In this document: piece by piece, positions 25,656 through 28,543 of the stretch
Numbering within the stretch: the stretch's first letter is position 1
How the letters are laid out: every line of letters starts with the position of its first letter
Origin: Burkholderia sp. WAC0059
Lineage (GTDB): Bacteria > Pseudomonadota > Gammaproteobacteria > Burkholderiales > Burkholderiaceae
NCBI RefSeq assembly: GCF_002870125.1
Contig: NZ_PNEO01000004.1
Span: 62,001 to 126,000 of the forward strand
Direction of reading: 5' to 3'
Length of the DNA stretch: 64,000 bases
Notes under the pieces: generated by a model
What the model saw: only the letters and a program-made list of their open reading frames with translations
Database searches by the model: none
Told to the model about the DNA's origin: nothing
Made by a program: the position numbers and the translations under genes

Positions 25656-27122
25656 ATGAACATTATCGAACCCGGTATCCGCAACCTCGCCACCGCGAAG
25701 GACGCGCTCCTCACCCCCTACGGCCTCGACGAAACCGTGCTCACGCGCACGCTCGCCGAAATCTTCACGCATCGCGTCGACTACGCCGACCTCTACTTCC
25801 AGACCACGCGCAGCGAGGCCTGGAGCCTGGAGGAAGGCATCGTCAAGTCGGGCAGCTTCAGCATCGACCAGGGCGTCGGCGTGCGGGCGGTGTCGGGCGA
25901 GCGCACCGCGTTCGCCTACTCGGACGACCTCTCGCCCGAGGCGATCCGCGAGGCCGCGATCGCGACGCGCGCCATCGCGAAAGCCGGCGGCGGCAAGCAC
26001 AAGGTCAAGGTGGCGTCGTCGCTCACGGGCGTGGCGGGGCGCGACCTGTACCTGCCGGCCGACCCGCTCAACTCGCTCGACGCGACCGCGAAGGTGAAAC
26101 TGCTCGAACGCATCGAGCAGATGGCCCGCGGCCGCGACCCGCGCATCACCCAGGTGATGGCGGGCCTTGCCGGCGAATACGACATCGTGCTCGTCGCGCG
26201 CAGCGACGGCGCGCTCGCCGCCGACATCCGGCCGCTCGTGCGCCTGTCGCTGACGGTGATCGCCGAGCAGAACGGCCGCCGCGAAATCGGCAGCGGCGGC
26301 GGCGGCGGCCGCTTCGACTACCGCCACTTCACCGACGAGGTGCTCGCGAAGTACGTCGACGACGCGGTGCACTCGGCGCTCGTCAACCTCGACGCGCGGC
26401 CCGCGCCGGCCGGCTCGATGACGGTCGTGCTCGGCCCCGGCTGGCCCGGCGTGCTGCTGCACGAGGCGATCGGCCACGGGCTCGAGGGCGACTTCAACCG
26501 CAAGGGCTCCTCGGCGTTCGCGGGCCGCATCGGCGAGCGGGTGGCCGCGAAGGGCGTCACCGTCGTCGACGACGGCACGCTGCCGAACCGGCGCGGCTCG
26601 CTCAATATCGACGACGAGGGCAACCCGACGCAGTGCACGACGCTGATCGAGGACGGCATTCTGAAGGGCTACATCCAGGACTCGCTGAACGCCCGGCTGA
26701 TGGGCATGCCGGTAACGGGCAACGCGCGCCGCGAATCGTACGCGTCGCTGCCGATGCCGCGCATGACCAACACCTACATGCTCAACGGCGACCGCGATCC
26801 GCAGGAAATCATCGCGTCGGTGAAGAACGGCCTCTACGCCGTGAACTTCGGCGGCGGCCAGGTCGACATCACGAACGGCAAATTCGTGTTCTCGGCCTCC
26901 GAGGCCTACATGATCGAGAACGGCAAAGTCACCTACCCCGTGAAGGGCGCGACGCTGGTCGGCAGCGGCCCGGAATCGCTCAAGTACGTGAGCATGATCG
27001 GCAACGACATGAAGCTCGACAGCGGCGTCGGCGTCTGCGGCAAGGAAGGCCAGAGCGTGCCCGTGGGCGTCGGCCAGCCGACGCTGCGCATCGACCGGAT
27101 GACGGTCGGCGGCACGGTTTAG
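25656..27122 (+). CDS. tldD: Metalloprotease TldD
   Basis: Metal-dependent peptidase subunit that works with TldE/PmbA to trim small peptides such as unfolded or modified peptides. The 488-residue protein carries the zinc motif in [14 protein letters not shown] (HExxxH) in its middle, an N-terminal domain with [20 protein letters not shown], and C-terminal [22 protein letters not shown]. The length is normal. The partner gene tldE/pmbA is not in the window. Transcription probably ends at the hairpin at 27166-27198. Confidence 0.96.
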
Positions 27123-27165: not shown

Positions 27166-27198
27166 GCCGAAAATACGCGGATTATCCGCATTTTCGGC
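27166..27198 (+). terminator. Terminator-like hairpin after tldD
   Basis: GCCGAAAAT...GCGGA pairs with TCCGC...ATTTTCGGC around a TTA loop, a 14-bp stem with a two-base bulge. The T-run lies inside the stem rather than after it. It sits 44 bp past the tldD stop and just before the aroG promoter. Confidence 0.6.
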
Positions 27199-27207
27199 CC
27201 CAATGAC

Positions 27208-27236
27208 TTGCCAGCCGGGCACGATCGGGTTATAAA
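27208..27236 (+). promoter_or_regulatory. aroG: Sigma-70 promoter of the aroG leader
   Basis: TTGCCA (27208-27213), exactly 17 nt, then TATAAA (27231-27236), each box matching consensus at 5 of 6 positions. Transcription would start near 27243, about 40 nt before the leader-peptide ATG. This is one of the best sigma-70 matches in the window. Confidence 0.75.
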
Positions 27237-27283
27237 GCAAGTCAACCTCTTTCGACGAACGATAGCTCAGACCGTTTTTCGCC

Positions 27284-27355
27284 ATGTCCGCCACCAAGTT
27301 TTACTTTTACTTTTTTTGGCATCTCAGGCCGCTGGCGGATCGAGAGGGTTGTTAG
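27284..27355 (+). CDS. aroG leader peptide, rich in Phe/Tyr/Trp (23 aa)
   Basis: An ATG at 27284 opens a 23-codon frame ending in TAG at 27353-27355. Residues 5-12 are KFYFYFFW: seven aromatic codons in a row (4 Phe, 2 Tyr, 1 Trp). This is the hallmark of an attenuation leader whose translation senses charged aromatic tRNAs. The peptide sits between the aroG promoter and a strong terminator, and its own coding sequence contains two of the pairing segments of the attenuator (see 27287-27412). A stable function for the peptide itself is not expected. Confidence 0.88.
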   Translation: MSATKFYFYFFWHLRPLADREGC

Positions 27356-27412
27356 CACGCGCAAGACCCGGATACACGAAGAACCGCCAGCGAAGCCTGG
27401 CGGTTTTTTTTT
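27287..27412 (+). promoter_or_regulatory. Transcription attenuator controlling aroG
   Basis: Four mutually exclusive segments are visible. Segment 1 TCCGCCA (27287-27293) pairs with TGGCGGA (27333-27339). Segment 2 CTGGCGG (27332-27338) pairs with segment 3 CCGCCAG (27384-27390). Segment 3, as AACCGCCAG, pairs with segment 4 CTGGCGGTT (27397-27405) to form the terminator. The aromatic codons (27296-27319) directly follow segment 1. A ribosome stalled there would cover segment 1, allow 2:3 pairing and give read-through; fluent translation would favour termination. All pairings were checked base by base. Confidence 0.85.
27382..27412 (+). terminator. Attenuator terminator before aroG
   Basis: A perfect 9-bp stem AACCGCCAG/CTGGCGGTT (27382-27390 and 27397-27405) with a CGAAGC loop is followed by an uninterrupted T9 run (27404-27412). 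It is a strong intrinsic terminator 57 bp before the aroG ATG, so it must be conditionally bypassed for aroG expression. Confidence 0.9.
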
Positions 27413-27469
27413 GCCCCCTTTAACCGAACACCCTGCAACACACGCTACGAAAAGGATTGGGAGAAAACC

Positions 27470-28543
27470 ATGCCCCCCCACAACACCGACGATGTCCGTA
27501 TTCGCGAACTGAAGGAACTCGCGCCGCCCGCGCACCTGATCCGCGAGTTCCCGTGCTCCGAAGCCGTATCGGACCTGATCTACAACGCGCGCGCCGCGCT
27601 GCACCGCATCCTGCACGGCCAGGACGACCGGCTCGTCGTCGTGATCGGCCCCTGCTCGATCCACGACACGAAGGCCGCCGTCGACTATGCCCGCAAGCTC
27701 GTCGAGCAACGCCGGCGCTTCGCCGGCGAGCTCGAGATCGTGATGCGCGTGTACTTCGAAAAGCCGCGCACGACGGTGGGCTGGAAGGGCCTCATCAACG
27801 ACCCGCACCTCGACAACAGCTTCCAGATCAACGACGGCCTGCGCACCGCGCGCGAGCTGCTCATGCACATCAACGAACTCGGCCTGCCCGCCGGCACCGA
27901 GTACCTCGACATGATCAGCCCGCAGTACATCGCGGACCTGATCTCGTGGGGAGCGATCGGCGCGCGCACGACCGAATCGCAGGTGCACCGCGAACTGGCC
28001 TCGGGGCTTTCGTGCCCGGTCGGCTTCAAAAACGGCACCGACGGCAACGTGAAGATCGCCATCGACGCGATCAAGGCCGCCTCGCAGCCGCATCATTTCC
28101 TGTCGGTCACGAAGGGCGGCTACTCGGCGATCGTCTCGACGGCCGGCAATGAGGACTGCCACGTGATCCTGCGCGGCGGCAAGGCGCCGAACTACGACAC
28201 CCAGAGCGTGGGCGCGGCTTGCAGCGACCTCGAAAAGGGCGGCCTCGCGGCGCGCCTGATGATCGACGCGAGCCACGCCAACAGCTCGAAGAAGCACGAG
28301 AACCAGATTCCCGTCTGCGCCGACATCGGCCGGCAGGTCGCGGCCGGCGACGAGCGCATCGTCGGCGTGATGGTCGAATCGCATCTCGTGGCAGGTCGCC
28401 AGGACCTGAAGGAAGGCTGCGAGCTGACCTACGGCCAGAGCATCACCGACGCCTGCATCGGCTGGGACGACAGCATCGCCGTGCTCGAAGGGCTCGCCGA
28501 GGCAGTGAAGCAGCGCCGGCTCGCACGCGGCCGCGCGGACTGA
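27470..28543 (+). CDS. aroG: 3-deoxy-7-phosphoheptulonate synthase (DAHP synthase, class I)
   Basis: Condenses phosphoenolpyruvate and erythrose 4-phosphate, the entry step of the shikimate pathway. The 357-residue protein is of the AroF/G/H type: VVVIGPCSIHDTKAA, MRVYFEKPRTTVGWKGLIND, WGAIGARTTESQVHRELASG, VGFKNGTDGN, LMIDASHANSSKKHENQ and MVESHLVAGRQDL. The N-terminal extension carrying the allosteric site is present, but which amino acid inhibits it cannot be told from motifs. A GGATTGGGAG ribosome-binding site precedes the ATG. Expression is probably set by the leader-peptide attenuator upstream. Confidence 0.96.
   Translation: MPPHNTDDVRIRELKELAPPAHLIREFPCSEAVSDLIYNARAALHRILHGQDDRLVVVIGPCSIHDTKAAVDYARKLVEQRRRFAGELEIVMRVYFEKPRTTVGWKGLINDPHLDNSFQINDGLRTARELLMHINELGLPAGTEYLDMISPQYIADLISWGAIGARTTESQVHRELASGLSCPVGFKNGTDGNVKIAIDAIKAASQPHHFLSVTKGGYSAIVSTAGNEDCHVILRGGKAPNYDTQSVGAACSDLEKGGLAARLMIDASHANSSKKHENQIPVCADIGRQVAAGDERIVGVMVESHLVAGRQDLKEGCELTYGQSITDACIGWDDSIAVLEGLAEAVKQRRLARGRAD

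Follow-up and report, generated by a model that had tools for sequence, protein, structure and literature searches.

The window, a 64,000-nucleotide stretch of the genome of Burkholderia sp. WAC0059, contains the DAHP synthase gene aroG and, upstream of it on the same strand, tldD. The region between the two genes holds a promoter, a short open reading frame (ORF) rich in aromatic codons, four pairing segments and an intrinsic terminator (Table 1). The aroG product scores 596 bits against the NCBIfam AroG equivalog model NF006723 (cut-off 568); two related DAHP synthase subfamily models, one of them named AroH, also exceed their own cut-offs for this protein. We located the promoter and the terminator by reading the sequence and by folding; an automated scan listed neither, and it omitted the promoter because its −10 rule requires T at position 6. 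An earlier, sequence-only reading of this DNA had described the same parts, and its coordinates for the promoter, the ORF, the pairings and the terminator proved right when the sequence was read again. This holds for the near-consensus promoter (TTGCCA-17-TATAAA), for the 23-codon aromatic leader ORF at 27284-27355 and for the three alternative pairings among four segments. The terminator was likewise found where that reading had put it, except that the run of nine T said to follow it was miscounted: seven T come after CTGGCGGTT, and nine are reached only by including the two inside it.

Table 1. Features of the aroG upstream region and its flanking genes (positions in the window)
Feature	Position	Strand	Remarks
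tldD	25656-27122	+	NCBIfam equivalog above cut-off; upstream neighbour of the attenuator region
Leader promoter TTGCCA-N17-TATAAA	27208-27236	+	From sequence; TTGCCA 27208-27213, 17-nt spacer, TATAAA 27231-27236
Leader peptide ORF MSATKFYFYFFWHLRPLADREGC, 23 codons plus stop	27284-27355	+	ATG 27284, TAG 27353-27355; without Shine-Dalgarno site
Segment 1 TCCGCCA	27287-27293	+	Able to pair with segment 2
Putative stall codons TTT TAC TTT TAC TTT TTT TGG (F Y F Y F F W)	27299-27319	+	
Segment 2 GCTGGCGGA	27331-27339	+	Antiterminator 5' arm
Segment 3 AACCGCCAG; as AACCGCCAGC	27382-27390; 27382-27391	+	Arm common to antiterminator and terminator
Segment 4 CTGGCGGTT	27397-27405	+	Terminator 3' arm; with T run spans 27397-27412
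T run	27404-27412	+	Nine T, first two within CTGGCGGTT
Intrinsic terminator	27382-27412	+	3:4 stretch folds at -19.2 kcal/mol
aroG, DAHP synthase, 357 aa	27470-28543	+	ATG 27470; putative regulated gene

Leader-peptide attenuation, as known from E. coli, combines a short ORF carrying codons of the pathway, alternative hairpins and a terminator before the first structural gene. At the sequence level, the aroG upstream region has the attributes of such a system: a short ORF, of predicted translation, rich in end-product codons; an antiterminator and a terminator that share an arm and are mutually exclusive; a terminator followed by a biosynthetic gene; and stall codons and a stop codon placed appropriately relative to segment 2. 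We regard a ribosome-mediated transcription attenuator controlling aroG as the best explanation, with a probability of about 0.9. RNA polymerase would start at the 27208-27236 promoter and a ribosome would follow on the leader ORF. With charged Phe, Tyr and/or Trp tRNA in short supply, the ribosome would stall at the aromatic codons and cover segment 1; segment 2 would then be free to pair with segment 3, the terminator would be blocked and aroG transcribed. With the tRNAs charged, the ribosome would reach the stop codon just past segment 2 and mask this segment, segments 3 and 4 would pair, and transcription would end in the T run. Transcription would also end if the leader were not translated, 1:2 and 3:4 forming together. 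That ribosomes stall, that the RNA switches and which of the three tRNAs matter are what we infer from this arrangement.

Conservation was analysed in a genus set comprising the window genome and 34 others (n = 35). An aromatic leader ORF lies 5' of aroG in all 35 genomes, so that the absence of conservation in close relatives, which the sequence-only reading had named as grounds for rejecting an attenuator, was looked for and not found. A strict test, requiring the ORF together with a perfect terminator stem, is passed by 33 of the 35; the two misses are L030, which has a frame-shifting one-base deletion, and L032, which has a G-U pair in the stem. The 34 leaders without a frame break contain 12 distinct 21-nt codon runs, 11 of which encode FYFYFFW and one FYFSFYW. 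Third-position T/C differences occur across the genus at five of the seven aromatic codons, TTT/TTC and TAC/TAT being synonymous, and the Trp codon TGG is kept in 34/35 members and both Tyr codons in 33/35. Four leaders (L004, L009, L025 and L029) have an extra base after TGG that shifts the frame of segment 2, the nucleotides of which are unchanged. The first half of the ORF is thus conserved as codons and the second half as RNA. Segment 1 reads TCCGCC or its wobble form TTCGCC in most genus members (TCCTCC in L014), and as such it is unrecognisable in other families. The promoter is retained in all 35 members, each having TATAAAG and TTGnnn at 17-18 nt, with TTG(C/T)CA in 31. The parts, their order and their conservation are shown by the sequences themselves. 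The mostly synonymous codon changes, the pairing segments kept despite frame shifts, the stop near segment 2 and the kept promoter strongly support the original proposal of a trp/phe-type leader-peptide attenuator ahead of aroG.

Several minor features were observed in the same genus set. The L030 leader lacks one T from the T-rich codon run, so that the Trp codon is lost and the stop lies far downstream; the deletion may be genuine or a homopolymer sequencing error. Directly after segment 2, ATCGAGAGGG (27339-27348) is kept in 34/35 genus members in any reading frame and may lengthen the 1:2 hairpin. Just 5' of the aroG ribosome-binding site, ACGCTACG (27441-27449) is present in 23/35 genus members.

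A chance origin of the arrangement is ruled out by conservation and by shuffling. None of 20000 two-base-block shuffles of 27200-27472 yielded a terminator together with an ORF in which 7 or more of 10 residues are aromatic, and shuffles of 90 upstream regions from the order gave 0/1800. A run of five F/Y codons by itself is not rare, with 6 matches at four genomic places versus 12 for the reversed control pattern; therefore, the weight of the case rests on conservation. Two other five-F/Y runs of the window genome were considered and rejected, L310 being the T tail of a different hairpin and L313 lying outside any short leader-type ORF. A further candidate, L314 (G000:C37:1923-1940), was also set aside: no terminator was seen behind its small ORF, and the next gene is, judged by eye, apparently unrelated to the pathway. 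The small ORF of L314 has six consecutive Phe codons in a T-rich stretch. Rfam 15 includes amino-acid leader families, and none of its families matched within the window at the gathering score; the best score for 27180-27480 was 17.8 bits, to NsiR1 (gathering 39).

The distribution of the element was explored with a structure-only pattern made of segments 2, 3 and 4, the query containing neither the peptide nor aroG. This pattern matches 36 of 250 genomes of the order, and its reversed form 1. Thirty loci were retrieved from this search, the window and two loci already known being included, and in 25 of them a DAHP synthase gene follows an aromatic leader ORF; the weakest of these is L069, with 4 of 10 residues aromatic, and the five loci lacking this combination are L059, L060, L073, L075 and L081. 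A slightly tighter pattern, run on named public genomes, gave at least 123 matches in at least 119 stretches. Among the matches listed, 86/123 have an aromatic leader ORF and then DAHP synthase, 4/123 have the leader with the gene position beyond the retrieved stretch, 4/123 have DAHP synthase but either a weak leader or an upstream end that is cut off, and 29/123 have neither leader nor DAHP synthase. Carriers among the matches listed include Burkholderia, Paraburkholderia, Caballeronia, Trinickia, Pararobbsia, Limnobacter, Polaromonas, Rhodoferax, Variovorax, Ramlibacter, Hydrogenophaga, Rubrivivax, Ideonella, Aquabacterium and Xenophilus. Those listed from outside the beta-proteobacteria are Solimonas (L262), a Lysobacterales bin (L246), Kiloniellaceae (L271) and a Terrimicrobiaceae bin (L274), the last possibly a binning error.

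To estimate prevalence in the order, we used 104 genomes besides that of the window that have an aroG-type DAHP synthase (E ≤ 1e-120; 55/160 genomes are without one). Fourteen of the 104 were carriers from the structure search, and the other 90 were tested separately: 17 pass the strict test and 21 a looser one. This amounts to 31/104 carriers by the strict test or 35/104 by the looser one, in 13/32 families. The strict test is positive for 0/1800 shuffles, 0/90 reverse complements and 0/5 paralogues; it misses carriers with imperfect stems (families f20 and f49), as it does L030 and L032 within the genus. Nothing convincing was found in the sample for 18 of the 19 other families; family f30 has no carrier among the 104 genomes and one, L074, outside the sample. 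Within the order, the element thus has a wide but patchy distribution. Outside the order, 103/143 genomes of the class matched, and the best-scoring 28 upstream regions were considered. Three of these best 28 (L089, L093 and L103) contain an ORF in which 5 or more of 10 residues are aromatic, a test passed by 77/5800 shuffles and 1/29 reverse complements. L089 has a matching terminator beside the aromatic ORF and L093 and L103 do not, which leaves 1 of the best 28 convincing.

The geometry of the leaders was compared in a set of 76. The distance from the last aromatic codon to GGCGG is 5-17 nt (8-15 nt in 71/76), and that from the GGCGG start to the stop codon is 10-31 nt in 75/76. Judged by the size of the ribosome footprint, the former spacing would put segment 2 at or just beyond the edge of a stalled ribosome, and the latter means that a ribosome at the stop codon could mask segment 2. 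The five-base core of the 2:3 and 3:4 pairs can form in 74-76 of the 76 leaders per column. Beyond this core, the first two columns allow 2:3 pairing in 66 and 65 leaders and 3:4 pairing in 72 and 71; the third column allows 2:3 in 58 and 3:4 in just 19. One column (x) varies in a concerted way, being T/A/T in segments 2/3/4 of 50 leaders, C/G/C in 13 and mixed in 13, the first two states representing a three-way change across the segments.

When segment 3 was permuted among the 31 distinct sets, the observed pairing was reached in 2/5000 permutations for 2:3 and in 0/5000 for 3:4. When each of the 13 families is represented by a single row, the observed value is attained by a median fraction of 0.12 of the permutations for 2:3 and of 0.005 for 3:4. 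Among the matches listed for public genomes, the x pair of 2:3 is possible in 83/92 leaders versus 16/29 of those with neither leader nor DAHP synthase, and 259/5000 permutations over three columns reach the observed 2:3 value. The covariation of 2:3 is modest, and only suggestive once relatedness is limited, whereas the 3:4 signal holds. Since the near-invariant GGCGG core is common to segments 2 and 4, most support comes from conservation.

Full-length RNA folds contain the terminator in 14/14 leaders. When the 5' part is masked and segment 4 is present, 11 of the 14 prefer 3:4 at equilibrium, and 2:3 is retained by L001 (the window), L038 and L048 only. Therefore, in most leaders the switch would have to be kinetic, with the order of transcription being important. 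The presence of the terminator in every full-length fold would also suit a fixed terminator that merely tunes the basal level of aroG, without any switch. Such an element explains neither the presence of an aromatic ORF, nor the spacing between this ORF and segment 2, nor the conservation of segment 2, and we consider it very improbable. Another explanation is that the terminated leader RNA or the peptide acts mainly in trans, in the style of S. meliloti rnTrpL/peTrpL, the attenuation of aroG being secondary. The available text of PMC7298713 provides a precedent for a trans-acting attenuator product, and the terminated product predicted for aroG would be a short RNA with a U run at its end. 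However, the peptide beyond the aromatic run differs between families and even changes frame within the genus; this variability disfavours a peptide with a conserved target of its own, and we find a main role in trans unlikely.

A ribosome-mediated attenuator is itself compatible with a variant in which stalling effectively senses one amino acid, most likely Phe, the Tyr and Trp codons being passengers. Phe codons are present in 76/76 leaders, 3/76 having Phe only, and the Phe-Tyr-Phe codons of C. glutamicum aroR are said, in the part of the literature available to us, to go with a response to Phe and not to Tyr. On the other hand, counted over the whole peptide, 57/76 leaders have Phe, Tyr and Trp and 15 more have Phe and Tyr, and the genus has kept Trp in 34/35 and both Tyr codons in 33/35 members. 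We treat the single-amino-acid variant as a serious option, though less likely than not, and combined sensing of Phe, Tyr and Trp by one leader as plausible.

Two modes of initiation appear to be represented among the leaders. In the window, 47 nt separate the −10 box from the leader ATG, a distance outside the 6-9 nt used as the sign of a leaderless mRNA. A Shine-Dalgarno match of at least 3 nt is absent from 32 of the 38 family-f1 leaders among the 76, and the longest match in the other 38 is 4 nt. Outside Burkholderia-type genomes (a group delimited by the lack of FYFYFFW and of family f1, and thus including a few Burkholderiaceae, e.g. L248 and L273), 80/104 distinct leaders have a −10-like TAnnnT hexamer whose end lies 6-9 nt upstream of the start codon; L057, L174, L191 and L196 are examples. 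In 67 of those 80 the hexamer is preceded by TGn, the usual form being TGCTACATT. The mean count of TAnnnT per position in these 104 leaders is 20 at 6-9 nt versus 0.48 at 10-53 nt. This position of the hexamer predicts leaderless leader-peptide mRNAs, transcription outside Burkholderia-type genomes most likely starting at the leader AUG. We lean towards a broader picture in which entry into the shikimate pathway is, in a large part of the beta-proteobacteria, under a pan-aromatic attenuator with two initiation forms: most of the carrier lineages sampled would be leaderless, their mRNA beginning with its own AUG, so that sensing would set in at nucleotide 1 and rely on leaderless initiation, and the Burkholderia-type would have a ~40-nt 5' leader without Shine-Dalgarno site.

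The kind of regulation is known. The trp, pheA and pheST attenuators of E. coli are named in the available text of PMC11802643, and the aroG leader resembles them in its ORF with pathway codons, alternative hairpins and terminator. It differs in its target, aroG, in mixing Phe, Tyr and Trp codons, in having the stop after segment 2, in lacking a clear Shine-Dalgarno site and in having no match to Rfam 15 at the gathering score. A DAHP synthase attenuator is on record for Corynebacterium glutamicum, where aroR-aroF is controlled through a leader peptide (PMC11802643, PMC4046766, as far as their accessible text goes); the aroR leader holds Phe and Tyr codons and is said to respond to Phe limitation, not Tyr (PMC11802643). 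This system shares with ours an aromatic-codon leader peptide ahead of a DAHP synthase gene but, compared by its description only, belongs to another phylum and has fewer aromatic codons. Other cases are predicted. The accessible part of PMC8632094 presents the uORFC-13-1 motif, a Phe-coding upstream ORF and terminator before Acholeplasma aroF, and cites an older attenuation hypothesis for E. coli aroF; by its description, uORFC-13-1 is a prediction confined to Acholeplasma and environmental sequences. From the Merino website data, the accessible part of PMC1173090 gives putative terminators upstream of DAHP synthase-tyrA operons in Vibrio and a putative attenuator for a Bordetella parapertussis supraoperon with aroQ-pheA and tyrA; as described there, these are tyrA-screened predictions concerning other genes or other lineages than Burkholderiales aroG. 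The Sinorhizobium meliloti trpL transcript, according to the excerpted text of PMC7298713, starts at the ATG of the leader ORF, like the leaderless mRNAs predicted here outside Burkholderia-type genomes, but this rnTrpL/peTrpL system is a Trp leader before trpE(G) in an alphaproteobacterium.

We found no description of the Burkholderiales aroG leader in the open-access papers searched, subscription papers being mostly outside this coverage; PMC5688073, in its accessible part, has a supplementary table of 82 short 5'UTRs of B. cenocepacia, which may hold an aroG entry. As far as the searches reach, the beta-proteobacterial spread, the mixing of Phe, Tyr and Trp codons and the lack of a clear Shine-Dalgarno site for initiation are new, and the element is set apart by its pan-aromatic codons and by the leaderless form predicted for it.

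Textbook control of DAHP synthase, derived from E. coli, consists of repression by TyrR and TrpR and of feedback inhibition. In Burkholderia sp. WAC0059 and many beta-proteobacterial relatives, a shortage of Phe, Tyr and Trp probably activates aromatic amino-acid synthesis, of which aroG encodes the first enzyme. If true, a conserved attenuator at the DAHP synthase step would be an alternative solution in many environmental and plant-associated beta-proteobacteria, and a single leader would possibly integrate three amino acids. The leaders found in nature (Phe only; Phe and Tyr; Phe, Tyr and Trp; leaderless or not) offer a comparative series for the effects of codon content and initiation mode on the attenuator response. 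The small leader ORF merits annotation in many genomes, and the element could serve as a regulatory handle for production of aromatic compounds in Cupriavidus or Paraburkholderia hosts.

The leader was also sought at related genes. The window genome has a second DAHP synthase gene, its product being 60% identical to that of aroG, and no aromatic leader was found there. Five further DAHP synthase paralogues are likewise without a leader, three of them from genomes in which the main copy has one. In the same genome as the window, no aromatic ORF was found 5' of trpE, the pabB-like gene or the prephenate dehydratase gene, these three having been examined and their identities checked with protein family models. 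Two members of family f23 (G056:C1:2636360-2638529 and G186:C1:2562483-2564629) carry a tandem pair of DAHP synthase genes behind one aromatic leader.
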